This document shows positions 45,282 through 62,483 of a stretch of 64,000 nucleotides of DNA, piece after piece. This stretch comes from Manganibacter manganicus (GTDB lineage Bacteria > Pseudomonadota > Alphaproteobacteria > Rhizobiales > Rhizobiaceae): contig NZ_MDET01000003.1 of NCBI RefSeq assembly GCF_002075885.1, positions 88,862-152,861 of the forward strand, given 5' to 3'. The notes below the pieces were generated by a model. It was not told the origin of the DNA. It worked only from the letters and a program-made list of their open reading frames with translations, and made no database searches. The translations under genes were made by a program, and so were the position numbers. Position 1 is the first letter of the stretch. Every line of letters starts with the position of its first letter.

Positions 45282-46175
45282 TTACTCCGCCGCAAGCGGC
45301 AGCCCTAGCAGATGATGGTCGGGCAAGGCCATCAGATCAGCCGAAAAGCGCGTCAGATCTTCCAACAGAGCGCCAAAACCTGCTTTCTTCTCGAAGGTAC
45401 GCTCATCCATATAAAGCCCGCGATTGACCTCGATCTGCAAGGCATGGAGATTGCGCGCCGGACGGCCATAATGCTCGGTTATGAAGCCCCCCGCATAGGG
45501 TTTGTTGTGCGCCACGACATAACCCATGGCGGAAAGCAGATCGATGGCATGCGCAGTGAGGGCCGCCGGCGCCGAAATGCCGAAACGATCTCCTATGATG
45601 AAATCCGGCTTCAGGCCGCCATCTCCGATCCGCACACTTCCCGGCATCGAATGGCAGTCAACCAGAACGGCAAAGCCGAAGCCGGCATGGGTGCGGGTGA
45701 GAAGTCGCTTCAGGGTCTGGTGATAGGGTTTGTAGATCACCTCGATTCGCGAAACGGCTTCGGCCAGCGGCAGCCGACCGGGGTAGATGTCGAGCCCCTC
45801 TCCCACCAGCCGCGGAACCGTGCCAAGACCGCCGGCAACGCGAGCGGAGCGAACGTTGCAATAAGACGGCACCGGTTCGCAGAACATGCGCGGATCGAGT
45901 TCCCATGGCTCGCGGTTCACATCAAGGTAAGCGCGTGGGAAATTCGCCGCCAGAAGCGGCGCTCCCAGCCCGACCACGCCGCCGAACAATTCATCGACAT
46001 AACAATCCTCAGAGCGGCGGATCGCTGTCCTGTCCAGCCGCGCCATACCCAGAAAACGTGGGGGATAATAGCGCCCGCTATGCGGCGAATTGAAAATGAA
46101 CGGCACACGCTGTTCCGCACCTGAGCGAATCTCAAAAGGCGGAACGGTCGAAAAATCTTCGTTTGCCGTCGTCAA
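45282..46175 (-). CDS. N-formylglutamate amidohydrolase family protein
   Basis: A 297-residue zinc hydrolase of the FGase (HutG-type) family, which releases formate and glutamate in histidine breakdown, though many members act on other N-formyl or N-acyl substrates. It has FIFNSPHSGRYYP at the start (first metal histidine), RSEDCYVDELF with the Asp/Glu set, and NREPWELDPRMF. LVDCHSMPGS carries the second metal residues, with GRPARNLHALQIEVNRGLYMDE at the end. No hut genes are in the window; the nearest histidine gene is hisN, which belongs to synthesis. The substrate is therefore uncertain. Confidence 0.88.
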   Translation of the reverse strand: MTTANEDFSTVPPFEIRSGAEQRVPFIFNSPHSGRYYPPRFLGMARLDRTAIRRSEDCYVDELFGGVVGLGAPLLAANFPRAYLDVNREPWELDPRMFCEPVPSYCNVRSARVAGGLGTVPRLVGEGLDIYPGRLPLAEAVSRIEVIYKPYHQTLKRLLTRTHAGFGFAVLVDCHSMPGSVRIGDGGLKPDFIIGDRFGISAPAALTAHAIDLLSAMGYVVAHNKPYAGGFITEHYGRPARNLHALQIEVNRGLYMDERTFEKKAGFGALLEDLTRFSADLMALPDHHLLGLPLAAE

Positions 46176-46865: not shown

Positions 46866-46940
<75 letters not shown>

Positions 46941-46954
46941 TCCATTCAGAAAAT

Positions 46955-48109
46955 TCAGACGCCGGCCACCGCGCATAGGTTTTTCATGCGCGACACGGCA
47001 AGTTCGGGGTCGGCAAGCAAGCCGGCCGCGTCGGCCAGACGGAATACCTCGGCGTAATGGCAGATGCCGCGCGCCGACTGCATGCCGCCGACCATGGTGA
47101 AATGATCCTGATGGCCGTTGAGCCAGGCCATGTAGACAATGCCGGCCTTGTAATATTCAGTCGGCGCCTCGAAGATCTTGCGCGACAGCGGCACGGTCGG
47201 CGCCATCAACCGGTCATAGCCGGCGCGGTCACCGGCACCGAGCCGCGCCAATGCTGCATTGGCCGCCGGAGCAATGGCGTCGAAAATGCCAAGCAGGGCA
47301 TGGGAGTGCCGTGTTCCGTCGCCCGCGATCAGTTCCGGGTAGTTGAAATCGTCACCCGTAAACATGACAACGCCACCTGGCAGGCGCGCGCGCAGCGCGA
47401 TTTCCTTGTCGGCGTCGAGCAGCGATATCTTGATCCCCTCGATCTTCGCCGCATGGCGTTCGATAATGGCGACCACGGTGTCCAATGCGGTCTCGAAATC
47501 GCCCGCGCCCCAATAGCCTTTCAGCGCGGGATCGAACATTTCGCCCAGCCAGTGCAGGATGACCTTATCGGATGCTTGCGACAGAATGCGATCATAGACA
47601 CGGGCGTAATCATCAGGGCCTTTGGCAAGCGCGGCCAGCGCACGGCTTGCCATCATGATGGCCTTGCCACCTTGTCCCTCGATAAAGCCGAACTGGTCTT
47701 CATAGGCTGCAATCACGTCATCGAGCGACGTCGCCGCGCCGGGTTCCAGATGGTCGGTGCCGACACCTGAAGCGAGATCGGCGCCCTCCACACTGCGCGC
47801 CTCGGCAATCGAACGGCGGATCAGTTCCCTGGCATTTTCCCAATCGAAACCCATGCCGCGCTGCGAAGTGTCCATCGCCTCGGCAATGCGAAAGCCCAGC
47901 CGCCATAGATGGTGGCGAAATGCCATGGTTCGATCCCAATCGACTGCGGCCGACCGCCAGGGATCAACGGCCTTCAGCGGATCGGCGACGACATGGGCGG
48001 CAGCATAGGCGACGCGCGGGAAATGAGCCCCCGGCACGGCCTCCACCGGCGTTCCAATCAGGCGATACAGCCTGCTGCGGCCATCGCTTTCGGGTAGCAC
48101 GATTTCCAT
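46955..48109 (-). CDS. DUF993 family protein, dihydrodipicolinate-synthase-fold lyase/aldolase candidate
   Basis: A 384-residue protein of the DUF993 family, which has the TIM-barrel pattern of DHDPS/N-acetylneuraminate lyase enzymes. ASGVGTDHL (about 113-121) stands where these have the GTTGE loop. Lys227 in EGIKISLLDADKE matches the Schiff-base lysine, followed by MFTGDDFNYPELIAGDG, like their second glycine-rich loop. Retro-aldol cleavage or dehydration of a keto-acid or keto-sugar derivative is therefore likely, but no substrate is known to me. AGGGAGAG precedes the ATG. It diverges from lacI, and a perfect 12-base palindrome lies between its -35 and -10 boxes, so it is the most direct target of the regulator. 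Confidence 0.85.
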   Translation of the reverse strand: MEIVLPESDGRSRLYRLIGTPVEAVPGAHFPRVAYAAAHVVADPLKAVDPWRSAAVDWDRTMAFRHHLWRLGFRIAEAMDTSQRGMGFDWENARELIRRSIAEARSVEGADLASGVGTDHLEPGAATSLDDVIAAYEDQFGFIEGQGGKAIMMASRALAALAKGPDDYARVYDRILSQASDKVILHWLGEMFDPALKGYWGAGDFETALDTVVAIIERHAAKIEGIKISLLDADKEIALRARLPGGVVMFTGDDFNYPELIAGDGTRHSHALLGIFDAIAPAANAALARLGAGDRAGYDRLMAPTVPLSRKIFEAPTEYYKAGIVYMAWLNGHQDHFTMVGGMQSARGICHYAEVFRLADAAGLLADPELAVSRMKNLCAVAGV

Positions 48110-48129
48110 GGAACTCTCCCTTTAACCGA

Positions 48130-48158
48130 GTCATAAATGGAACGTTCCAATAATTCAA
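48130..48158 (-). promoter_or_regulatory. promoter of the DUF993 gene with LacI-type operator in the spacer
   Basis: On the minus strand TTGAAT (48158-48153), a spacer of exactly 17 bases and TATGAC (48135-48130) form a sigma-70-like promoter. The spacer contains TGGAACGTTCCA (48149-48138), a perfect palindrome centred on CG as LacI-family operators are. Binding here would block RNA polymerase. The promoter ends about 20 bases before the start codon. Confidence 0.75.
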
Positions 48159-48240
48159 CTGAATTGATCCGATGATTATGATTCAGATTCTACCCCTATT
48201 CCGTTTGTTTTATTGCATTTCATGCGAGGATAAATTCCGG

Positions 48241-48279
48241 TTGACGACAGCTTGCTAAATGTTATTAGAACGTTCCAAT
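48241..48279 (+). promoter_or_regulatory. lacI promoter with second operator over the -10 box
   Basis: TTGACG (48241-48246), 16 bases, then TATTAG (48263-48268) form the promoter of the regulator gene. ATTAGAACGTTCCAAT (48264-48279) is an almost perfect palindrome sharing the GAACGTTC core with the operator at 48138-48149 and overlapping the -10 box. The two operators are about 128 bases apart centre to centre, so negative autoregulation and looping between them are both possible. Confidence 0.75.
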
Positions 48280-48309
48280 AAATTGCTAACCCTGGAGGTT
48301 TGGGAGGTC

Positions 48310-50366
<2,057 letters not shown>

Positions 50367-50393
50367 CGCGCAGGGAATTGTCGAGAACCAAAA

Positions 50394-51980
50394 ATGACCA
50401 AACTCATCACCGCCGCTGAAGCCGCCAATCTCATCAAGGACGGCATGACCGTCTCGGTTTCCTCTTCGTCCGGCCTCGGCTGTCCGGATGCGGTGCTGGC
50501 CGCCATCGGCGCACGGTTTGAGGCGGAGGGTCATCCACGCGACCTCACCACGCTGCACCCCATCGCCGCCGGCGATATGTGGGGCATCAAGGGTATCGAC
50601 CATCTGGCCAAGCCCGGCCTTCTGAAGACGGTCCTTGCCGGTTCCTACCCCTCCGGTCCCTCCTCCGCCGAGCCGCCGCTGATCTGGCAGATGATCGCGG
50701 ACAATAGCGTCGCGGCCTACAATGTGCCGTCCGGCATCATGTTCGACATACATCGCGAGGCGGCGGCCAAGCGCCCCGGCGTGCTCACCAAGGTTGGCCT
50801 CGACACTTTCGTCGATCCGCGTCAACAGGGCTGCGCCATGAACGAGGCGGCCAGCGACGCCATCGTTCGCCTGGAAAATTTCGACGGCCAAGAATGGCTG
50901 TACTTCCCCGCCATCGTTCCGCAAATCGCCATCATCCGCGCCACCAGCGCCGACGAGCGCGGCAATCTCACCTATGAGCACGAGGGCGCTTATCTCGGCG
51001 GGCTCGATCAGGCACTGGCCGCGCGCAACAATGGCGGCATCGTCATCGCGCAAGTCAAGCGCATGGTCGAAAACGGCACGCTGAAGCCGCATGACGTGCG
51101 GGTGCCCGGTGTGCTGATCGATCATATCGTGGTCGATCCCGACCAGTTGCAGACCACGCAGACACCCTACGATCCGGCGATCTCCGGCGAGATCTTCCGG
51201 CCGCTTTCCACCTTCCGCACCCCGGCACTCGATGTGCAGAAGGCAATTGCGCGCCGCGTGGCCATGGAGTTGCACGATGGTTGGGCGGTCAATATCGGCT
51301 TCGGCATCTCGGCCAATGTGCCGCGCATCCTTCTGGAGGAAGGTCAGCACGGCAAGGTCACCTGGGTGATCGAACAGGGCGCCGTCGGTGGCGTGCCGCT
51401 GCTCGATTTCAAATTCGGCTGTTCGTCAAACGCCGAGGCCATCGTGCCTTCGCCGTACCAGTTCACTTACTTTCAGGGCGGCGGCTTCGACGCTTCACTG
51501 CTCTCCTTCCTGCAGATCGACCGCCATGGCTCGGTCAACGTCTCCAGGCTTGCCGTGCGCCCGCATGTCACCGCCGGCTGCGGCGGCTTCGTGGACATTA
51601 CGGCACGCGCGAAAAAGATCGTCTTTTCCGGCTTCTTCAATGCCGGCGCCAAGCTGTCGCTGGCCGATGGCCGCATCCGAATCGACAAGGAAGGAAAGGT
51701 CCGCAAGATCGTCGATGAGGTCGATCACATCTCCTTCTCCGGCCGCCGCGCCATCGAGCAGGGGCAGGACATCACCTATGTCACCGAGCGCTGCGTAATG
51801 AAGCTGGCGCCACAGGGCCTTCTGGTCACGGAAATCGCGCCCGGCATCGACCTTGAGCGCGACGTGCTGGCGCAGGCTGGGACCACATTGGCGGTATCGC
51901 CGCATTTGAAGACCATGCCAGCGGCGCTTTATCAGGGTCAGCCGATCGGCATGTCGCTGGATGGAGGCGGCAATGTCTGA
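50394..51980 (+). CDS. family I acyl-CoA transferase, propionate/acetoacetate CoA-transferase-like
   Basis: A 528-residue enzyme with both CoA-transferase domains fused, as in propionate CoA-transferases. Domain 1 runs to about residue 260 (DGMTVSVSSSSGLGCPDAVLAAIG, YNVPSGIMFDIHREAA and RTSADERGN-like RATSADERGNLTYEHEG). Domain 2 has the catalytic glutamate, about residue 327, in VIEQGAVGGVPL, and then the TYFQGGGFDASLL block. It moves CoA from an acyl-CoA donor to a carboxylic acid. Inside an ABC sugar-type locus this implies that an acid intermediate is activated as its thioester, probably for the hydratase encoded next. The substrate is unknown. Confidence 0.9.
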   Translation: MTKLITAAEAANLIKDGMTVSVSSSSGLGCPDAVLAAIGARFEAEGHPRDLTTLHPIAAGDMWGIKGIDHLAKPGLLKTVLAGSYPSGPSSAEPPLIWQMIADNSVAAYNVPSGIMFDIHREAAAKRPGVLTKVGLDTFVDPRQQGCAMNEAASDAIVRLENFDGQEWLYFPAIVPQIAIIRATSADERGNLTYEHEGAYLGGLDQALAARNNGGIVIAQVKRMVENGTLKPHDVRVPGVLIDHIVVDPDQLQTTQTPYDPAISGEIFRPLSTFRTPALDVQKAIARRVAMELHDGWAVNIGFGISANVPRILLEEGQHGKVTWVIEQGAVGGVPLLDFKFGCSSNAEAIVPSPYQFTYFQGGGFDASLLSFLQIDRHGSVNVSRLAVRPHVTAGCGGFVDITARAKKIVFSGFFNAGAKLSLADGRIRIDKEGKVRKIVDEVDHISFSGRRAIEQGQDITYVTERCVMKLAPQGLLVTEIAPGIDLERDVLAQAGTTLAVSPHLKTMPAALYQGQPIGMSLDGGGNV

Positions 51981-52749
51981 ACCACTCGTCACCTTCGAAG
52001 CCGATGGCGCTATCGGCACGATAACATTGCGCCGAGCGGGCAAGTTCAATGCGCTCGACATACCGATGCTGCGCGCGCTGGAAAACGCATTGCGCGAAGC
52101 GGAAGATGCCGATGACGTGCGCGTCATCCTGCTTTGCGGCGAAGGCAAGGGGTTTTGCGCCGGCGGCGACATCGAGGCATGGTCGGGGATGAGCGCCGCC
52201 GATTTCCAGGTAAAGTGGGTGCGCTATGGCCACCGCGTCTTCGACCGGCTCGCCCGTCTTCGCCAGCCCACCATCGCCGTGCTTTCCGGTCATGCGCTGG
52301 GCGGCGGGCTGGAACTGGCCGCTGCCTGCGATCTGCGCATCGCCGAAACGCAAGTGAAGCTCGGCTTCCCCGAAACCTCACTTGGCGTCGTACCGGGCTG
52401 GTCGGGAACGCAACGCGCCGTGCGCCGCTTCGGCGCGCAGGCGGTGCGGCGCATGGCGATCGGTGGCGAAGTCTTCACCGCCGCGCAGGCGCTTTCCCTC
52501 GGCATTGTCGATCGTGTGGTGGACACTGGCACGGCACGAAACGAGGCAAAGGAATGGGCCGGAAAAATCGCCCGGCGCGGGCCTCTGGCGACGGAAGCGA
52601 CCAAGCTGATGATCGCCATTGCCGAAGGCGAGGAAACGGCGTCTTCAACCGAAACATTAGCCAGTGGATTCATTGCATTAACTGGCGATCTCAAGACCGG
52701 CGTCGACGCGTTTCGGCGCAAAAACGATCCCGATTTTTCAAGAACTTAG
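51973..52749 (+). CDS. enoyl-CoA hydratase/isomerase family protein
   Basis: A 258-residue crotonase-fold enzyme. It has the oxyanion-hole motif CAGGDIEAWSGM near residue 65, and the second helix region VLSGHALGGGLELAAACDLRIA. The active-site region ETSLGVVPGWSGTQRAVR follows; Glu in PETSLGVVPG is retained where hydratases have the first catalytic glutamate, while the second position (Gly-Trp-Ser) differs from classic double-Glu hydratases, so an isomerase, lyase or hydrolase reaction is possible. The start at 51973 has GGAGGCGG upstream and overlaps the CoA-transferase stop by eight bases. It surely works on the thioester made by that enzyme. Confidence 0.9.
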   Translation: MSEPLVTFEADGAIGTITLRRAGKFNALDIPMLRALENALREAEDADDVRVILLCGEGKGFCAGGDIEAWSGMSAADFQVKWVRYGHRVFDRLARLRQPTIAVLSGHALGGGLELAAACDLRIAETQVKLGFPETSLGVVPGWSGTQRAVRRFGAQAVRRMAIGGEVFTAAQALSLGIVDRVVDTGTARNEAKEWAGKIARRGPLATEATKLMIAIAEGEETASSTETLASGFIALTGDLKTGVDAFRRKNDPDFSRT

Positions 52750-52775
52750 CGGCAGATACGGACTCAGAAAATCAC

Positions 52776-54287
52776 ATGAACGCGCCTCTCCAAATCGACA
52801 TGCCTCCCGAGGCATCTTCCGCCCCGAAAGCCTATAAGCTTCTCATTGGCGGTCGGCAGGTCGATGCCCACGACGGGCGCATCATCGAACGCGTCTCGCC
52901 CGGCCACGGCTTTATCGTATCGCGGTACGCGCAGGCCGGCGAAACCGATGTCGAAGCCGCCGTCCAGTCAGCCCACAAGGCCTTCGAGGCCGGCCCATGG
53001 CCGCGCATGAAAGCAGTGGAGCGCGCCGCGATCCTGTTGAAAGCCGCCGACCGGATCGAGACTCGGCTGGAGGAAATCGCGCGGCTCGACGCACTGGAAT
53101 CCGGCAAGCCGATCGCCCAGGCCCGCAGCGAGATCGCCGGGGCGGTGGACATCTGGCGCTATGCCGCCGCCCTTGCCCGCACGCTCAACGGCGAATCCTA
53201 CGCCAATCTCGGCGATACGATGCTTGGCGTCGTGCTGCGTGAACCGATTGGCGTCGTCTCGATCATCACGCCCTGGAACTTTCCTTTCCTGATCGTCAGT
53301 CAGAAATTGCCCTTTGCGCTCGCCGCCGGCTGTACGGCGGTGGTGAAGCCCAGCGAAATGACATCGGCCTCGACCTTTGTGCTCGGTGATATTTTGTTAG
53401 AAGCCGGCCTGCCGGCAGGGGTGGTCAACATCGTCGCCGGGTTCGGCAGCGATGTCGGCGCCACCATGGTTTCGCACCCGCTGGTCGAGATGGTGTCCTT
53501 TACCGGCTCGACCCGCGTCGGCAAATTGACGATGGCCTCGGCAGCCGCCTCGCTGAAGAAAGTTTCGATGGAACTCGGCGGCAAGAACGGCCAGATCGTG
53601 TTTCCCGACGCCGATCTCGAAGCGGCAGCCGACGCGGCCGTCTTCGGCGGGTTCTTCAACGCCGGCGAGTGTTGCAATGCCGGCAGTCGGCTGATCGTCC
53701 ATGAAGCTATTGCCGCCGAATTCCTCGACGCCGTTCGGGCATTGACCGCGAAGGTCAAGGTGGGCGATCCTCTCGACGATACCACCAAGGTGGGGGCGAT
53801 GATCTCGGCTGAGCATCTCGACAAGGTGCGGGGTTACATTGGCGAGGCCGCCAAAGCCGGCGTCGTGGTCCACGCCGGCGGGCAGTCACTGCCCGCAGGC
53901 AAGGGGGTTTATCTCGACCCCACGATCCTCAGCGGCGTGAAAGCCGATATGGCTGTGGCGCGCGAGGAGGTGTTCGGGCCGGTCCTGTCCATGCTGACTT
54001 TTGAATCGATTGAAAAGGCGTTGCACATCGCCAATGACACGCCTTATGGTCTATCGGCCGGGGTGTGGAGCAAGGACATCGACACCTGCATGGCGATAGC
54101 GCGCGGGGTGCGCTCCGGAACCGTTTGGGTGAACACGTTCATGGACGGATATCCCGAATTGCCGTTCGGCGGCTACAAGCAGTCCGGTCTCGGCCGCGAA
54201 CTCGGGAAACGCGCGGTTGAAGACTACACGGAGGAGAAGACAATCCAGTTTCATCGCGGCCCCCGCACTGCAAAGTGGGTCGGCTGA
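52776..54287 (+). CDS. NAD(P)-dependent aldehyde dehydrogenase
   Basis: A 503-residue ALDH-superfamily enzyme oxidising an aldehyde to the acid. It has the cofactor and substrate channel blocks [31 protein letters not shown] and the general base Glu in [12 protein letters not shown]. The catalytic Cys, near residue 300, is in GECCNAGSR. The closing [11 protein letters not shown] and [14 protein letters not shown] motifs are present. The start is the Met at 52776; the very long in-frame upstream extension is antisense-free noise over the hydratase gene. It follows that gene by 26 bases. It may produce the acid that the CoA-transferase activates. Confidence 0.94.
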
Positions 54288-54345
54288 GTTGAGAAGAACC
54301 CGGTGGAACCCACCGGCCATGCCAATGCAACAAGGGAGGAAGTTC

Positions 54346-55602
54346 ATGTTGCGTAAACTGCTTATCGGAACCCTGCTGGCCACGGGCCTGACGGCCGGCT
54401 ATGCCGTAACAACCCAGGCAGCCGGGGAATCGGTCGAGGTCCTGCATTGGTGGACCTCCGGCGGCGAAGCGGCCGCACTCAACGTGCTGAAGAAGAAACT
54501 CGAAAGCCAGGGCATCACCTGGAAGGACATGCCCGTTGCCGGCGGCGGTGGCGAGCAGGCGATGGCTGCGCTGCGCGCTCGCGTCACCGCCGGCGATCCG
54601 CCTACCGCGGTGCAGGCGCTCGGCTTCGACATCACCGACTGGGCCAAGCAAGGCGTCGTCGGCGATCTGGATTCGGTCGCAGGCAAGGAAGGCTGGGACA
54701 AGGTCATTCCCGCCGCGCTACAGAAATTCGCCAAATTTGATGGCAAGTGGATCGCCGCGCCGGTGAACGTCCATTCCACCAACTGGATCTGGATCAACAA
54801 GAAGGCGCTCGACGCTGCAGGCGGCAAGGCTCCCGAGACCTGGGACGAACTGATCGCCGTTCTCGACAAGATGAAGGCCAATGGCATCATCCCGATCGTC
54901 GGCGGCGGCAACGCCTGGAACGCAGCCACCATGTTCGATTCCATGGTCCTTTCGCTCGGCACCGATTTCTACCAGAAATCGCTGATCGATCTTGACCCGG
55001 AGGCACTCGGTTCCGACAAGATGGTCGAAGCCTTCACGCGCCTGTCCAAGCTGCGTTCCTATGTCGATGACAACTTTTCGGGCCGCGAATGGAACCTCGA
55101 TTCCGCCATGGTCATCGACGGCAAGGCCGGCATGCAGATCATGGGCGACTGGGCCAAGGGCGAGTTCGTCAACGCCGGCAAGAAGCCGGGTGAAGACTTC
55201 GTCTGCATCCGCTTCCCCGGCACGCAAGGTGCGGTCACCTTCAACTCCGATATGTTCATGATGTTCAAGGTCGGCAAGGACAAGCAGGCGGCCCAACTCC
55301 AGATGGCCTCCGACATCGAGGACCCGGCCTTCCAGTCGTCGTTCAACGTCGTCAAGGGTTCGGCTCCGGCGCGTACCGATGTGCCGGACACCGCTTTCGA
55401 CGCTTGCGGCAAGAAGGCGATCAAGGATCTCGCGGAAGCCAATGAGAAGGGCACGCTGCTCGGCTCCATGTCGCAGGGTTATGCCAGCCCGGCTGCGATC
55501 AAGAACGCCATGTATGACGTGATCACCCGCGAATATAACGGCGATCTCGATCCCAAGGCGGCTGCCGAGGCGCTCGTCGACGCTGTCGCTGCGGCTCAAT
55601 AA
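54346..55602 (+). CDS. ABC sugar transporter, substrate-binding protein (CUT1 type)
   Basis: A 418-residue periplasmic protein of the family 1 extracellular solute-binding class. The signal peptide spans residues 1-26 ([19 protein letters not shown], cleaved after TTQA). The mature part starts [29 protein letters not shown], typical of glucoside- and oligosaccharide-binding members, and [21 protein letters not shown] is the hinge region. It delivers substrate to the two permeases encoded next. AAGGGAGGAAG precedes the ATG at 54346. No lipobox is seen. The family member set suggests a mono- or disaccharide-like ligand, not decidable further. Confidence 0.94.
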
Positions 55603-55663
55603 GCCAAAGAAGCCCGTGCCCCGGTGTTGACCGGGGCACATTCCAGCGAACCGGATTATCATC

Positions 55664-56581
55664 ATGGCCGACGCCACCATGACCGCGCCCGGCGCGGTGA
55701 CTACTGCGAAAACAACGTTACAGGACCTGCTGCCGAAGATCGTGCTGGCGCCCAGCTTCGCCATCATCCTCGTTTTCGTCTATGGCTTCATCATCTTCAC
55801 CGGCTTTCTCTCCTTTTCCGGCTCGAAACTCCTGCCCGATTTCTCGACATGGGTCGGGTTCGAAAATTACGTGCGCCTGTTCCGGCACCCGAACTGGATC
55901 GTCTCACTCCAGAACCTCGCCATCTTCTCGGTGCTCTACATCGTCATCTGCTCGGTGATCGGCCTCGGGCTTGCCATCCTGCTCGACCAGAAGATTCGCG
56001 GCGAAGGCTTCCTGCGGCCGATCTACCTCTATCCGATGGCGCTATCCTTCATCGTCACCGGCGTAGCCTGGAAATGGTTTCTCGACCCCGGCATCGGGCT
56101 TGAGCACGCCATGCATCAGATTGGCTGGGAAAGCTTTTCCTTCCGCTGGATCAAGGATCGCGATTTCGCCATCTACACCATCGTCATTGCCGCGATCTGG
56201 CAGTCGTCCGGCTTTGTGATGGCGATGTTCCTTGCCGGCTTGCGCGGCGTCGACAACGAGATCATCAAAGCCGCCCAGATCGACGGCGCGTCAACATTCA
56301 TGATCTACCGGCGCATCATCATCCCGCTGATGCGCCCGGTTTTCCTGTCGGCCTTCGTCGTGCTCGCCCACCTTGCCATCAAATCCTACGATCTGGTGGT
56401 CGCCATGACGGATGGTGGGCCCGGCACATCAACCTGGACGCCCGCTCTGTTCATGACGAAATTCACCTTCGGCCGCAACGAGATGGGCATGGGCGCGGCA
56501 TCCGCCATGGTCATGATGATGATGATCTTCGCGATCATCGTGCCCTATCTCTATTCAGAACTCGGAGGGCACAAGAAATGA
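55664..56581 (+). CDS. ABC sugar transporter permease, MalF type
   Basis: A 305-residue inner-membrane subunit with six predicted helices and a soluble N-terminal lead of about 25 residues. The cytoplasmic EAA loop, which contacts the ATPase, reads IIKAAQIDGASTFMIYRRIIIPLMRPV near residue 205. The first helix is FAIILVFVYGFIIFTGFL. It pairs with the MalG-type subunit, whose start overlaps its stop as ATGA. It forms the translocation channel for the substrate bound by the upstream protein. Confidence 0.93.
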   Translation: MADATMTAPGAVTTAKTTLQDLLPKIVLAPSFAIILVFVYGFIIFTGFLSFSGSKLLPDFSTWVGFENYVRLFRHPNWIVSLQNLAIFSVLYIVICSVIGLGLAILLDQKIRGEGFLRPIYLYPMALSFIVTGVAWKWFLDPGIGLEHAMHQIGWESFSFRWIKDRDFAIYTIVIAAIWQSSGFVMAMFLAGLRGVDNEIIKAAQIDGASTFMIYRRIIIPLMRPVFLSAFVVLAHLAIKSYDLVVAMTDGGPGTSTWTPALFMTKFTFGRNEMGMGAASAMVMMMMIFAIIVPYLYSELGGHKK

Positions 56582-57459
56582 GCCGGCCTTCCGCCGATGT
56601 CGCCACCCGCAACGGCGTTTTTGCCCGCGCCTTCATCTACGCCGTTCTGATCCTGTTTGTGGTCTATTACCTGTTGCCGCTCTACGTGATGCTGGTCAAT
56701 TCGTTGAAGCCGCTCGACGAAATCCGCAAGGGCAACATGCTGGCGCTGCCGCATGTATGGACGATCGCGCCGTGGCTCGAAGCCTGGTCGACGGCGCAGA
56801 TCGGCGTACAGCCCATCGGCCTTAAACCCTATTTCCTCAATTCCATCATGATGGTGGTGCCGGCGGTTGCCATCTCGACGCTGCTCGGCGCGCTCAACGG
56901 CTATGTGCTGACCAAATGGCGCTTCCGGGGCGACAATGTCGTCTTCGGCATGATGCTGCTGGCCTGCTTCATCCCCTTCCAGATCGTGCTGATCCCCGCC
57001 GCGCGTATTCTCGGCCTGCTGGGGCTGGCTGGGTCGGTGCCCGGACTGATCCTCATCCACACCGTCTATGGCCTCGGCTTCACCACCCTGTTCTTCCGCA
57101 ATTATTACGAGGCCTTCCCGACCGAACTGATACGCGCCGCCCAGATCGACGGCGCCTCATTCTTCCAGATCTTCCGGCGTATCCTCCTCCCGTCCTCGGG
57201 ACCGATCATCGTCGTCACCGTCATCTGGCAGTTCACCAATATCTGGAACGACTTCCTGTTCGGCTCCTCATTCTCGAGCTTCGACTCCATCCCCATCACG
57301 GTGGCGCTGAACAATCTGGTGAACTCGTCCACCGGCGTGAAGGCCTACAACGTCCATTTCGCGGGAGCGATTCTGGCGGCGCTGCCCACCCTCATCGTTT
57401 ACATCGTCTCCGGACGCTATTTCGTGCGCGGCCTGATGGCCGGCGCCGTGAAGGGATAG
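56578..57459 (+). CDS. ABC sugar transporter permease, MalG type
   Basis: A 293-residue inner-membrane subunit with six helices, opening FIYAVLILFVVYYLLPLYVMLVNSLKP, the usual MalG start. Its EAA loop is LIRAAQIDGASFFQIFRRILLPSSGPI near residue 190. The C-terminus is VRGLMAGAVKG, the standard carbohydrate permease ending. It overlaps the previous gene by four bases and ends three bases before the ATPase start, so the three are co-translated in a tight block. Confidence 0.94.
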   Translation: MSRPSADVATRNGVFARAFIYAVLILFVVYYLLPLYVMLVNSLKPLDEIRKGNMLALPHVWTIAPWLEAWSTAQIGVQPIGLKPYFLNSIMMVVPAVAISTLLGALNGYVLTKWRFRGDNVVFGMMLLACFIPFQIVLIPAARILGLLGLAGSVPGLILIHTVYGLGFTTLFFRNYYEAFPTELIRAAQIDGASFFQIFRRILLPSSGPIIVVTVIWQFTNIWNDFLFGSSFSSFDSIPITVALNNLVNSSTGVKAYNVHFAGAILAALPTLIVYIVSGRYFVRGLMAGAVKG

Positions 57460-57462
57460 CCA

Positions 57463-58578
<1,116 letters not shown>

Positions 58579-58585
58579 ACCAGCC

Positions 58586-60088
58586 ATGACCTCCCCGGAT
58601 ATCGTCATCATCGGCTCCGGCATTGGCGGCGCCACGATTGCTGCCGGTCTGGCCGGAAGCGGTGCCAACATCCTGATCCTGGAACGCGGCGAACCTTTGC
58701 CGGTAACGCCGCATGCCCGCGACAGCCGCGCGATTTTCGTGGACGGCCACTACCGTCCAAAGGAGTTTTGGCGTGAGGCCGGCGGCCAGCCCTTCAATCC
58801 CGGCAACTACTACTACGTCGGCGGCAATTCAAAATTCTACGGCGCGGTACTGATCCGCTACCGTAGGGAAGATTTCGCCGAACTGGAGCATTTCGGCGGG
58901 CTCTCTCCCGCTTGGCCCTTTCCCTACGAAGAACTGGAGCCATGGTACTCTAGGGCCGAGCAGCTTTTCCGGGTGCGCGGTGCGCTGGGCGACGACCCGA
59001 CCGAGCCTTTCCACTCGACCCCCTACCCTTTCGATCCGGTACCGGACGAACCTGCCATCGCGCGTGCCCGCTCCGAACTGCAAGACCTCGGCCTGCATCC
59101 CGCCTCGCTGCCGCTTGGTGTCGACATAGACGCCTGGCTGAAGGACGGCAAGACGCCGTGGGACGCCTTTCCCAATACCGGCGAAGGCAAGGTCGATGCC
59201 CAGAGCGGCCCGCTGACGGCAGCTCTTGTCGACAAAAACATCCGGCTTGAAACCGGCGCTTATGTCGAGCATCTGGAGGTGTCGCCGGATGGCAGTGCCA
59301 TCGTCGCGATTCATTACCGGCAGGGTAATGAATTGAAGGTCGTCACACCCCGACTGGTCATCCTCTCCGCCGGTGCCATCAATTCCGCCGCGATCCTGCT
59401 GCGCTCGCCCTCCCCTGCCGGCAAAGGCCTTGCCAACTCGTCCGATCATGTCGGCCGCAATTTCATGAATCACAATTCCAGCGCGATGCTGGCCATCGAC
59501 CCCCGCCGGCGCAACGACAGCGTCTATCAGAAAACCCTGATGCTGAACGACTACTACCTTTCCGACGGCAAGGGCGGCAGGCCACTCGGCAATGTCCAGC
59601 TACTCGGCAAGATCGACGGCAACATCCTCAAGGCCAATGTGAACTGGGCACCGAAATTCGCCACCGATTTCATGGCCGGCCACGCCATCGACTGGTATCT
59701 GATGTGCGAGGATCTGCCCGATCCTGAAAGCCGCGTCATGGTCGATGGCAAGGGCATCGTGCTGCAATGGCACCGCTCCAACATGGAGGCGCTGGCCGGC
59801 CTAACCAAAGTCATGCGCGAGAATTTCCGCGCCTGCGGCTACCCGATCGTGCTGTCACGGCCATTCGACAAGCGCACGCCCTCGCACCAGTGCGGCACAG
59901 TGCGCATGGGCAGCGACCCGGCAGCCGCGCCGCTCGATCCCTGGTGCCGGTCGTTCGACCACCAGAACCTGTTTGTCGTCGATGGCGGTTTCCTACCGAC
60001 CTCAGCTGCCGTCAATCCGGCATTGACCATCGCCGCGCAGGCGCTGCGGGTTGCCGATCATATTCGCAAGACGGAACTCAGCTCATGA
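58586..60088 (+). CDS. GMC family FAD-dependent oxidoreductase, first copy
   Basis: A 500-residue flavoprotein. It has FAD motif IVIIGSGIGGATIAAGLAG with the ribose Glu in ILILERGEPLP, and YYYVGGNSKFYGAVLIRYR, the FAD-contact block in its gluconate/fructose-dehydrogenase-like variant. The C-terminal GMC domain has the active-site SHQCGTVRMGSD, then DGGFLPTSAAVNPALTIAAQALRVADHI. It is closer to the sugar 3-dehydrogenase/2-keto-type branch than to choline dehydrogenase. There is no twin-arginine signal or cytochrome partner, so it may be cytoplasmic and use a soluble acceptor. It probably oxidises a hydroxyl of the imported substrate. Confidence 0.9.
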   Translation: MTSPDIVIIGSGIGGATIAAGLAGSGANILILERGEPLPVTPHARDSRAIFVDGHYRPKEFWREAGGQPFNPGNYYYVGGNSKFYGAVLIRYRREDFAELEHFGGLSPAWPFPYEELEPWYSRAEQLFRVRGALGDDPTEPFHSTPYPFDPVPDEPAIARARSELQDLGLHPASLPLGVDIDAWLKDGKTPWDAFPNTGEGKVDAQSGPLTAALVDKNIRLETGAYVEHLEVSPDGSAIVAIHYRQGNELKVVTPRLVILSAGAINSAAILLRSPSPAGKGLANSSDHVGRNFMNHNSSAMLAIDPRRRNDSVYQKTLMLNDYYLSDGKGGRPLGNVQLLGKIDGNILKANVNWAPKFATDFMAGHAIDWYLMCEDLPDPESRVMVDGKGIVLQWHRSNMEALAGLTKVMRENFRACGYPIVLSRPFDKRTPSHQCGTVRMGSDPAAAPLDPWCRSFDHQNLFVVDGGFLPTSAAVNPALTIAAQALRVADHIRKTELSS

Positions 60089-60846
60089 CCCGCCCCGTCG
60101 CCATAGTCACTGGCGGAGCGCGCGGCATCGGCCTTGCCTGCGCCGAGGCTCTGGCCGAAGCCGGCTTCGATATTCTTCTTGCCGATCTGGCCACACCGCC
60201 AGCCGAAGGTTTGCATGCCCGTATCGAAAAGCGTGGCGCCGCCTTCGGCTACGCCTCCTGCGATATCGCCGATCTGGCGACACATGAGCGGCTGGTTGCC
60301 GCCGCGCTGGAAAAATTCGGCCGCATCGATTGCCTCGTCAACAATGCCGGTATCGGCGCAGTAGAGCGCGGCGATCTGCTGGACCTGAAGCCGGAGAATT
60401 TCGACCGGATCGTTTCGGTCAACCTGCGCGGCACGGTCTTTCTCAGCCAATCCGTTGCCAAGGCGATGCTGGCAACGCCCACCGACCACCCGAAGTCGGT
60501 CGTCACCATCACCTCGGTCAGCGCCGAAATGGCGTCACCGGAGCGGCCCGACTACTGCGTTTCCAAGGCCGGCCTTTCCATGTGGGTGAAGAATCTGGCG
60601 TTGCGGCTTGCACCCGAAAACATCGGCGTGTTCGAGGTCCGCCCCGGCATCGTTCGAACCGACATGACCGCCGGGGTCGCGCACAAATACGACGCCCTGA
60701 TCGAAAGCGGGCTGGTGCCGGCAAGACGCTGGGGCGAGCCGGCCGATATCGGCGCGGCGGTGGCTGCCCTCGCTTCCGGCAAACTCGGCTTCGCCACCGG
60801 CTCGATCGTCAATCTCGACGGCGCACTTTCCGTGCCCAGACTATGA
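60085..60846 (+). CDS. short-chain dehydrogenase/reductase, 3-ketoacyl-ACP-reductase-like
   Basis: A 253-residue SDR with the NAD motif TGGARGIGLACAEAL (residues 9-23), Asp at the end of strand 2 (ILLADLA) favouring NAD, NNAGIGAV, the catalytic serine in ITSVSAEMASPERPDY and the YCVSKAG tyrosine-lysine. It ends with FATGSIVNLDGALS, the normal closing. Its start overlaps the GMC stop by four bases and its stop overlaps the second GMC start (ATGA at both ends), so it is embedded between two flavoproteins. It presumably oxidises or reduces a neighbouring hydroxyl or keto group of the same intermediate. Confidence 0.92.
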   Translation: MTRPVAIVTGGARGIGLACAEALAEAGFDILLADLATPPAEGLHARIEKRGAAFGYASCDIADLATHERLVAAALEKFGRIDCLVNNAGIGAVERGDLLDLKPENFDRIVSVNLRGTVFLSQSVAKAMLATPTDHPKSVVTITSVSAEMASPERPDYCVSKAGLSMWVKNLALRLAPENIGVFEVRPGIVRTDMTAGVAHKYDALIESGLVPARRWGEPADIGAAVAALASGKLGFATGSIVNLDGALSVPRL

Positions 60847-62483
60847 GCAAGATCATGACCGATTTCATCATTGTCGGCGCCGGACCAGCCGGCTGCGTGC
60901 TGGCCAACCGGCTTTCCGAAGATCCCGCCAACAAGGTGCTGCTGCTGGAGGCCGGCGGCAAGGACTGGCATCCGCTGATCCACATGCCCGCCGGCTTTGC
61001 CAAGATGACCAAGGGCATCGCCTCCTGGGGCTGGTCCACCGTGCCGCAGAAACACATGAACGACCGCGTCTTCTGGTACACGCAGGCCAAGGTACTGGGC
61101 GGCGGTTCCTCCATCAACGCGCAGATCTACACGCGCGGCAATGCCCGCGATTACGACGCCTGGGAACACGAGGAAGGGCTTGCCGGCTGGGGTTATCGCG
61201 ACGTGCTGCCCTATTTCAAGCGCGCCGAAGACAACCAGCGTTTTTCCAACGACTATCACGGTGACGCCGGCCCGCTCGGTGTCTCCAACCCGATCGCGCC
61301 GCTGCCGATCTGCGAGGCTTATTTCCGCGCGGCCCAGCAATTGGGCATTCCCTTCAACCCGGATTTCAACGGCGCGAGCCAGGAAGGCGTCGGCTATTAC
61401 CAGTTGACCCAGAAGGACGCCCGCCGCTCGTCGGCCTCCGTCGCCTATCTGAAGCCGATCCGCGACCGGAAAAATCTCACGGTGAAAACCGGTATTATGG
61501 TCACGCGCGTTGTCGTGGAAAACGGCCGTGCCGTCGGCGTCGAGATCGTGGACAAGCCAGGCAGCCGTCCGCAAATCCTGCATGCCGAGCGCGAAATCAT
61601 CGTTTCCTCCGGCACCATCGGCTCGCCGAAGCTGCTGATGCAATCCGGTATCGGCCCCGCCGATCATCTGAAGTCGGTCGGCATCGCCCCGGTCCACGAC
61701 CTGCCCGGCGTCGGCTCCAACATGCAGGACCATCTCGACCTGTTCGTGATCTGCGAATGCACCGGCGATCACACCTACGACAATTACGCAAAACTGCACC
61801 GCACCGCCTGGGCCGGCCTCCAGTATCTGCTGCTGAAAAAGGGGCCGGCAGCCTCCTCGCTGTTCGAGACCGGCGGCTTCTGGTATGCCGATCCGACCGC
61901 CGCCTCGCCGGATATCCAATTCCATCTCGGTCTCGGCTCCGGCATCGAGGCCGGCGTGGAGAAGCTGAACAATCCCGGTGTCACGCTCAACTCCGCCTAT
62001 CTCAGGCCGCGCTCACGCGGCACGGTGCGGTTGGCCAGCGCCGACCCTGCCGCCATGCCGCTGATCGACCCGAATTACTGGGCCGATCCGCATGACAAGG
62101 CAATGGCGATCAAGGGGCTGCGCCTTGCCCGCGAGATCATGCGCCAGCAGGCGCTGAAACCCTATGTGCTGCGCGAGGTGCTGCCGGGCGAGCGGTTAGA
62201 CACCGACGACGAGTTGTTCGACTACGCCTGCCGTTCGGCCAAGACCGATCATCATCCGGTCGGCACCTGCCGCATGGGCCATGGCGAGGACGCGGTGGTA
62301 ACGCCCGAACTGAAGGTGCGCGGCATCGACGCCTTGCGCGTTTGCGATGCCTCGGTGATGCCGCGCGTGCCGTCGTCCAACACCAATGCACCGACCATCA
62401 TGGTGGGCGAAAAGGGCGCCGACATCATCCTTGGTCGCGAGCCGCTGCCGCCGGCGGTCTTTTCGGGCAATCGCGCGGCCTGA
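60843..62483 (+). CDS. GMC family FAD-dependent oxidoreductase, second copy, choline/alcohol dehydrogenase-like
   Basis: A 546-residue flavoprotein of the choline dehydrogenase/BetA-AlkJ branch. It has FAD motif FIIVGAGPAGCVLANRLSEDP, LLLEAGGKD, WGWSTVPQKHMNDRVFWYTQAKVLGGGSSINAQIYTRG for FAD contact, and SSGTIGSPKLLMQSGIG. The catalytic histidine is in DHHPVGTCRMGHG and the second active-site residue in SSNTNAPTIMVGEKGADIIL. It is only distantly related to the first GMC gene, so the pair is not a recent duplication and may oxidise different positions or intermediates. The start overlaps the SDR stop. It ends four bases before the convergent transporter gene. Confidence 0.92.
   Translation: MSKIMTDFIIVGAGPAGCVLANRLSEDPANKVLLLEAGGKDWHPLIHMPAGFAKMTKGIASWGWSTVPQKHMNDRVFWYTQAKVLGGGSSINAQIYTRGNARDYDAWEHEEGLAGWGYRDVLPYFKRAEDNQRFSNDYHGDAGPLGVSNPIAPLPICEAYFRAAQQLGIPFNPDFNGASQEGVGYYQLTQKDARRSSASVAYLKPIRDRKNLTVKTGIMVTRVVVENGRAVGVEIVDKPGSRPQILHAEREIIVSSGTIGSPKLLMQSGIGPADHLKSVGIAPVHDLPGVGSNMQDHLDLFVICECTGDHTYDNYAKLHRTAWAGLQYLLLKKGPAASSLFETGGFWYADPTAASPDIQFHLGLGSGIEAGVEKLNNPGVTLNSAYLRPRSRGTVRLASADPAAMPLIDPNYWADPHDKAMAIKGLRLAREIMRQQALKPYVLREVLPGERLDTDDELFDYACRSAKTDHHPVGTCRMGHGEDAVVTPELKVRGIDALRVCDASVMPRVPSSNTNAPTIMVGEKGADIILGREPLPPAVFSGNRAA

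Follow-up and report, generated by a model that had tools for sequence, protein, structure and literature searches.

The window analysed here, a stretch of 64,000 nucleotides from Manganibacter manganicus (contig NZ_MDET01000003.1, assembly GCF_002075885.1), carries at positions 46955-62483 a real and conserved block of 13 genes that is likely to serve the catabolism of 1,5-anhydro sugars. A catabolic locus at this place had been proposed from the letters of the DNA alone (the original prediction), and this proposal is borne out, since every gene of the block is an open reading frame and the content of the block is kept in related loci. The specific route which we favour, with a probability of roughly 0.4, is an aerobic breakdown of 1,5-anhydroglucitol, 1,5-anhydrofructose and 1,5-anhydromannitol through epimerisation at C2, oxidation to the C6 acid, formation of a coenzyme A (CoA) thioester, ring opening by a crotonase and cleavage by a protein of the DUF993 family. 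Both the chemistry of ring opening and the DUF993 reaction are predictions.

The substrate class is indicated by the third gene of the block (49353..50366, plus strand). Its product belongs to the Gfo/Idh/MocA family, as had been suggested, while the role assigned to it, a generic oxidiser of sugar hydroxyls, was incomplete: over its full length the protein is related to 1,5-anhydro-D-fructose reductase (AFR). With phmmer, residues 3-332 matched 2glx with 479.5 bits (4.4e-143) and 4koa with 475.4 bits (8.1e-142), both of which are deposited as AFR, and the next family below, glucose-fructose oxidoreductase, reached 117 bits. A generic MocA protein or inositol dehydrogenase was rejected as AFR is ahead by more than 360 bits. 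K94, D176 and H180, which we take in position and role to be the catalytic residues of AFR, are present. Its predicted reaction is the NADPH-dependent reduction of anhydrofructose to anhydromannitol. Sinorhizobium meliloti Ak57 shows the same gene order around a gene annotated as 1,5-anhydro-D-fructose reductase, whose product matches 4koa nearly identically over all 333 residues and is 67.5% identical to the window protein. Judged by this match, the protein of 4koa, or a near-identical one, is encoded within the S. meliloti cluster. We assume that AFR is SMc04400 in S. meliloti and that the cluster of strain 1021 corresponds to about SMc04390-SMc04401. In addition, an AFR relative (59%) lies beside a relative of GMC flavoprotein 1 (GMC1) of the block on a Bradyrhizobium plasmid, which we count in favour of our reading; the 27 kb shown there contains nothing else of the cluster. 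Aerobic catabolism of 1,5-anhydro sugars as a class therefore appears probable. Whether a homologous cluster is already assigned to a substrate has a mixed answer: one of its enzymes has a known substrate class, the 1,5-anhydro sugars, but the pathway is not assigned.

Related loci were collected with the solute-binding protein of the block alone as query, so that transporter genes are present by construction, and the presence of the other genes was scored with identity thresholds in the best 80 of 587 confirmed loci. All 13 genes were found in 24 of these 80 loci and the CoA-transferase in 32. Among the latter, crotonase and GMC flavoprotein 2 (GMC2) are always present, followed by GMC1 and the LacI regulator (31 each), the aldehyde dehydrogenase (ALDH; 29), the AFR-type MocA protein and the SDR (28 each) and DUF993 (26). 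The 48 loci without CoA-transferase, some of which lie on short contigs where absence can be truncation, mostly carry none of the seven other enzyme genes (42 loci); the six that carry at least one are L006, L018, L027, L039, L047 and L048, several of them again on short contigs. Order and content are kept across loci of Mesorhizobium, Aminobacter, Rhizobium, Roseibium and Azospirillum. Within a sample of 37 genomes of the same genus, that of the window included, DUF993, CoA-transferase and GMC1 each occur in the same 33 (GMC1 of G024 only at 64%), and all three are missing from the same four (G005, G006, G013 and G035). DUF993 and GMC1 share one contig, with a span of 12.4-13.4 kb, in 31 of the 33; the fragmented assemblies G007 and G024 have them on different contigs. 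AFR was detected at 76% or more in 31 of the 37 genomes, one copy being cut by a contig end (G024), and is missing from G014 and G030 besides the four genomes without the markers. The two halves of the block, which meet between ALDH and the solute-binding gene and had been predicted to belong together, thus do co-occur in relatives, and the block is more than a chance grouping. When 24 genomes from other genera of the order were searched, GMC1 was found in none at E<=1e-80 and DUF993 in five, so DUF993 also works elsewhere.

The pathway which we propose would begin with the uptake of an anhydrohexitol, shaped like 1-deoxyglucopyranose, by the glucose-type ATP-binding cassette (ABC) importer of the block. 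GMC1 (58586..60088, plus strand; PF05199/PF00732), a predicted pyranose C2 dehydrogenase, would oxidise anhydroglucitol at C2 to anhydrofructose, which the AFR relative would reduce to 1,5-anhydromannitol, amounting to a net epimerisation at C2. The C6 alcohol would then be turned into the aldehyde and the acid by GMC2 (60843..62483, plus strand; PF00732/PF05199), a choline-dehydrogenase-like protein and predicted primary-alcohol dehydrogenase, together with ALDH (52776..54287, plus strand; PF00171, 557 bits). The CoA-transferase would make the C6 thioester and thereby acidify H5, so that the crotonase could eliminate the beta hydroxyl at C4 and hydrate the enol ether at C5. Opening of the hemiketal would yield 2-keto-3-deoxy-D-gluconate (KDG), which DUF993, with a Schiff-base lysine, would split into pyruvate and D-glyceraldehyde. 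Oxidation of the latter would give glycerate for phosphorylation by glycerate kinase, and the SDR (60085..60846, plus strand; PRK12745 family, NF009386 with 362.6 bits at a cut-off of 250) may handle three-carbon products. C6 was chosen as the oxidised end because the CoA-transferase needs a carboxylate and the crotonase a beta-hydroxyl: C6 is the sole primary alcohol of 1,5-anhydromannitol, with the C4 hydroxyl beta to it. From the manno isomer the acid would have the D-erythro configuration and release D-glyceraldehyde; the gluco isomer would lead to the L-threo acid and L-glyceraldehyde. As only the manno isomer would yield D-glyceraldehyde, this may be why AFR makes that isomer. A route from C1 through mannonate would also end in KDG, and the DUF993 step would consequently not depend on which end is oxidised. 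A more demanding version, which we regard as doubtful, holds that the cluster is a complete and undescribed aerobic 1,5-anhydroglucitol pathway that employs neither an oxygenase nor radical chemistry, with the crotonase as uronyl-CoA lyase/hydratase and DUF993 as sugar-acid aldolase. The sequence of oxidation, DUF993 cleavage and thioester processing in the original prediction is supported in part: the single locus, the fold and the lack of a kinase stand, while the clue to the substrate that AFR provides had been missed.

The CoA-dependent steps are assigned to two proteins. The family I CoA-transferase (50394..51980, plus strand) is of the YdiF/FadX type (YdiF 2ahu, 3.5e-114; PF01144, 114.7 bits) and carries Glu327, presumably the active-site glutamate of this family, in an IEQGAVGG motif. 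The crotonase (51973..52749, plus strand; PF00378), a predicted beta-hydroxyacyl-CoA dehydratase, has 3-hydroxypropionyl-CoA dehydratase 5zai as its closest Protein Data Bank (PDB) entry. Its E114 and E134 are invariant in 13 of 13 proteins and align with glutamates of 5zai; we take them to be the catalytic glutamates of crotonase-type dehydratases. A deoxyribonate-type cleavage of a beta-keto acid, which we believe to use a DUF849-type gene, was rejected as Pfam and NCBIfam scans found no such gene in the block.

DUF993 (46955..48109, minus strand) has a TIM-barrel fold that matches DHDPS (the DHDPS/N-acetylneuraminate lyase fold), as had been anticipated; the structure 4dnh is that of the DUF993 protein SMc04132. 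A proof of the kinship from sequence only failed, as local profile alignments were not significant, and it is the fold match that carries the claim. K227, located at the end of strand 223-228, is invariant in 21 of 21 DUF993 proteins, and the protein is a predicted class I aldolase. A search for literature on DUF993 found no paper. In favour of the proposed products, glycerate kinase is encoded within the cluster or adjacent to DUF993 in L032, L061, L082, L083, L087, pAO1, P. versutus and O. arcticus. The pAO1 cluster of Paenarthrobacter nicotinovorans resembles the window block in having GMC, aldehyde dehydrogenase and Gfo/Idh/MocA genes around DUF993, plus the glycerate kinase. It differs in that, as annotated, two permeases follow the ATPase and that no CoA-transferase or crotonase occurs in the stretch shown; its MocA protein was likened at the level of the family.

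If DUF993 consumes KDG, loci without DUF993 should use another way. Six such cluster loci have one FAD protein in common, 68-74% identical to the L085 copy. In four DUF993 genomes (G000, G066, G067 and G078) it produced weak partial matches, with 41 bits at best, and none of the five whole genomes among the six has a DUF993 match. A PfkB kinase gene stands directly after the FAD protein in three of the six (W01, G062 and G064), which we count for our reading. The best NCBIfam match of the W01 kinase is KDG kinase, and the other two kinases are 60% and 56% identical to the W01 copy. As far as such family matches can tell, this arrangement fits with DUF993 acting on KDG. The FAD protein itself, a FAD_binding_2 member of about 700 residues, marks L041, L043, L046, L049, L053 and L085, and five of these loci also lack the SDR.

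Several findings weigh against the proposed pathway. First, K227 lines up with the DapA lysine in a profile alignment, but at a probability of 0.65% this alignment lacks significance. DUF993 has DTSQ or DTAQ where KDG aldolases have GTTGE, and His186 where they have Tyr, and PF00701 (KDG aldolase/DapA) had no match in the window protein at E<=0.001. Due to the missing match, motif and tyrosine, DUF993 is not filed as a member of the KDG aldolase/DapA family. Second, glycerate kinase lies outside the window block, with one encoded elsewhere in the genome. Third, the comparison with loci lacking DUF993 has its own weak points: the sixth of them, Rhizobium CCGE531 (W01), carries a DUF993 relative (H58) on another replicon, and the KDG-kinase-like scores of 248-257 bits do not reach the family cut-off of 400. 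The KDG kinase model matches in all 13 genomes or records as well as in 14 of 14 control genomes. AFR is also missing in three of the five loci whose genomes have no DUF993 (L041, L043 and L049), and neither the FAD protein nor a levoglucosan-dehydrogenase-like MocA protein found in five of the six loci is explained by the scheme.

Fourth, parts of the cluster occur without AFR. G014 and G030 keep its other enzymes next to a different ABC transporter, and a minimal set without AFR is found in L161, L168, L169, L171 and L019. GMC1 and AFR are therefore not an obligate pair, and GMC1 as an obligate partner of AFR was rejected. The corresponding loci of G014 and G030, L155 and L156, have a solute-binding protein of 59% identity, which suggests a switch of substrate; the GMC genes of L155 lie outside the stretch fetched, and its GMC1 was found on the same contig. 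The minimal loci L161, L168, L169, L171 and L190 consist of GMC2, CoA-transferase and crotonase plus SDR, DUF993 and a xylose-isomerase-like TIM protein. An acyl-CoA dehydrogenase is added in L168 and in L190 from P. versutus, and L190 also has ETF and a glycerate kinase. The AFR-less and minimal loci show that different inputs are served by the CoA core. Finally, S. morelense converts anhydromannitol to D-mannose by oxygenation at C1 and not by oxidation at C6, according to a published account (PMC12441222). This mannose route contradicts C6 oxidation, thioester formation and crotonase ring opening if S. morelense uses the same cluster. The published route and the versatility of the CoA core are the reasons why we place the specific pathway well below the substrate class in confidence.

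The strongest competitor of our pathway accepts the same substrates and follows this published ring opening. The AFR product 1,5-anhydromannitol would be oxygenated at C1 to D-mannose by an enzyme inside or outside the cluster, and the CoA genes would serve a later or separate step, for example a dehydration of the D-mannonate type. We consider this unlikely. The same account, a 2025 review, describes the sequence anhydrofructose, anhydromannitol, mannose for Rhizobiaceae, with a P450-like hydroxylation at C1 to which no enzyme is assigned (PMC12441222). In Sinorhizobium morelense S-30.7.5, the likeness to our cluster consists of the full-length AFR relative and of the S. meliloti Ak57 reductase within the same gene order; the route as described there ends in mannose, and no CoA arm, DUF993 or GMC enzymes are named in that part of the account (PMC12441222). 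In the loci L039 and L048, which have an AFR relative and no CoA genes, a protein of PF07350 (DUF1479-type) is encoded beside the glucose-type ABC transporter. L039 also has a GlcNAc_2-epim gene, from a family that presumably includes mannose isomerases, which makes a plausible gene set for the mannose route. However, family scans found no oxygenase, mannose isomerase or mannose kinase gene in the 13-gene block. PF07350 was found in none of nine genomes (that of the window and eight with cluster genes), in a search of doubtful sensitivity that also missed its Escherichia coli control and did not extend to cytochrome P450.

The Gig2-like/DUF1479 proteins (PF07350) of L039 (7386-8636, minus strand) and L048 (6931-8172, minus strand) lie near the glucose-type ABC genes. 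Proteins 46-51% identical to the L048 copy occur in the same neighbourhood in L033, L034, L036, L037, L040, L054 and L056. YbiU of E. coli K-12, a strong member of PF07350 with 515 bits, is 40-46% identical to these proteins and is encoded two genes from ybiW, the reported gene of anhydroglucitol-6-phosphate lyase. The Gig2-like/DUF1479 protein is a candidate for the C1 oxygenase of anhydro sugars. According to the 2025 review, E. coli uses YbiW and PflD to break down anhydroglucitol and anhydromannitol anaerobically, and an analogous oxidative route has not been described for anhydroglucitol (PMC12441222). This glycyl-radical route concerns the same substrates as our pathway but depends on phosphorylation by the phosphotransferase system and on an oxygen-sensitive radical enzyme, and none of these genes occurs in the window block. 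As far as titles and the beginnings of abstracts show, none of the papers listed on the S. meliloti locus tags, anhydroglucitol, anhydromannitol, pAO1 and ybiW/ybiU describes an aerobic cluster with this gene set; the tags SMc04391-04400 turned up in two papers.

According to another explanation, the substrate is a different glucose-like pyranoside or a 2-keto-aldose (osone) reduced by the AFR relative, and the cluster encodes a general glucoside or osone pathway. Work by Kuhn in 2006 is said to have found that AFRs also reduce osones, and the binding protein is close to glucose-binding proteins. The AFR-less variants with exchanged transporter (L155 and L156) and the minimal loci (L161, L168, L169 and L171), in which the GMC2, CoA-transferase and crotonase genes are combined with SDR and DUF993, show that the core can serve other inputs. 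However, neither a glycosidase nor a glucokinase was detected in the block by family scans, 28 of the 32 loci with a CoA-transferase also have AFR, and among solved proteins AFRs come closest by far, with 480 bits against 117 for the next family. We therefore judge this explanation rather improbable. That a CoA-ester operon and a sugar operon are unrelated and became neighbours by chance, as the hairpin-containing 58 bp gap between the halves and the 48 of 80 loci with a glucose-type ABC but no CoA-transferase might suggest, is made very unlikely by the order and content kept across five genera and by the co-occurrence of markers of both halves in the same 33 of 37 genomes.

If the proposed 1,5-anhydroglucitol pathway is true, the large DUF993 family would obtain its first function, as sugar-acid aldolase, and with it a first testable reaction. 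The cluster would further name genes for an aerobic anhydroglucitol route in tractable bacteria. Glycogen storage disease Ib and G6PC3 deficiency involve a neutropenia in which the phosphate of 1,5-anhydroglucitol, one of the main human polyols, builds up.

The importer of the block comprises the solute-binding protein (54346..55602; PF01547), sugar permease 1 (55664..56581; PF00528, 57.5 bits), sugar permease 2 (56578..57459; PF00528, 59.2 bits) and the ATPase (57463..58578; PF00005 and OB_MalK PF17912), all on the plus strand. The solute-binding protein matches 4r2b with 660 bits (1e-197) and the sugar-binding proteins 5dvf, 5xpj and 8hqq at 1e-105 or better. We assume that 4r2b holds glucose and that the other three, from Pseudomonas, bind glucose. 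By these matches the importer is of the glucose type, with glucose or a glucose analogue as predicted ligand. Literature searches for 4R2B and Oant_3817 returned unrelated papers only. In solute-binding protein and transporter order the importer resembles the glucose ABC importer type that we know as Gts; the difference is that here it is joined into a 13-gene catabolic block, whereas 48 of the 80 related loci lack the CoA-transferase. By gene order, SMc04396 should be the S. meliloti solute-binding protein of this cluster. Separate accounts report that SMc04396 is induced by dextrin (PMC4960864) and that glucan lyase forms anhydrofructose from starch and glycogen (PMC2974679).

GMC1 has the FAD-glucose dehydrogenase 8hdd/6a2u and the fructose dehydrogenase 7w2j as its nearest PDB entries, while the closest structures to GMC2 are 9lq0 (7e-111) and 8b7s (1e-110). 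GMC2 and ALDH had suggested a betaine/choline operon, which was rejected: the importer is of sugar type and both proteins stay below the NCBIfam cut-offs, GMC2 with 519.6 against 732.1 for betA and with a near miss of 601.5 against 605 for the subfamily NF002550, ALDH for BADH. In Rhizobium sp. ACO-34A the cluster ALDH is labelled sorbosone dehydrogenase. SMc04390 is labelled L-sorbose dehydrogenase, and SMc04390, SMc04391, SMc04392 and SMc04132 share a single module of proteins that differ in a PhaR comparison, according to a published table (PMC12542648). The likeness to the L-sorbose/L-sorbosone dehydrogenase pair, a GMC protein and an aldehyde dehydrogenase turning a primary sugar alcohol into an acid, is one of labels only.

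The window genome comprises 4.84 Mb in 60 contigs, and the closest relatives bearing a name among the matches belong to Mesorhizobium. The window proteins were scanned with Pfam and NCBIfam. Both agree with the family names given in the original prediction, and neither revealed a sugar kinase in the 13-gene block, again as predicted. One gene more was found than the 12 that had been counted, while the tight spacing with nearly all genes on one strand was confirmed. Twelve genes lie on the plus strand and DUF993 alone is divergent; it is followed by LacI, MocA, CoA-transferase, crotonase, ALDH, solute-binding protein, the two permeases, ATPase, GMC1, SDR and GMC2. By coordinates, 4 bp overlaps join LacI and MocA, the two permeases, GMC1 and SDR, and SDR and GMC2; CoA-transferase and crotonase overlap by 8 bp, and ATPase and GMC1 are separated by 7 bp. 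One hairpin lies in the 58 bp gap between ALDH and the solute-binding gene (54300-54316), another after the solute-binding gene (55619-55638). They are perhaps elements of mRNA processing or of expression ratio in the transporter operon. The cluster is bordered at its DUF993 end by a tRNA-Val gene (46866-46940). DUF993 has the gene at 45282-46175 as a neighbour in the relatives L090 and L110 as well, so the site gives no sign of being a recent island.

Between DUF993 and the LacI-family regulator (48310..49356, plus strand; PF00356 and PF13377) two near-perfect palindromes, AATGGAACGTTCCAAT and ATTAGAACGTTCCAAT, are found. Their operator-like sites have the cores TGGAACGTTCCA (48137..48151) and TAGAACGTTCCA (48265..48279). 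Nowhere else in the 4.84 Mb genome does a sequence come within two mismatches of WTTGGAACGTTCCAAW; the same pattern read backwards occurs at one place per strand. In each of the 27 DUF993 loci of the same genus, the ten-base core recurs two or more times with one mismatch at most. All 30 cluster loci scanned contain two or more places that differ from TTGGAACGTTCCAA at no more than two positions (64 places in total); when each locus was shuffled once, no such place appeared. The 30 loci with paired sites include L061 of Azospirillum, L044 and L050 of Roseibium and the DUF993-less L041, L043 and L085. A further operator ahead of the solute-binding gene was considered and rejected, as no such palindrome occurs at 54240-54360. 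We infer that the LacI regulator binds the two palindromes.

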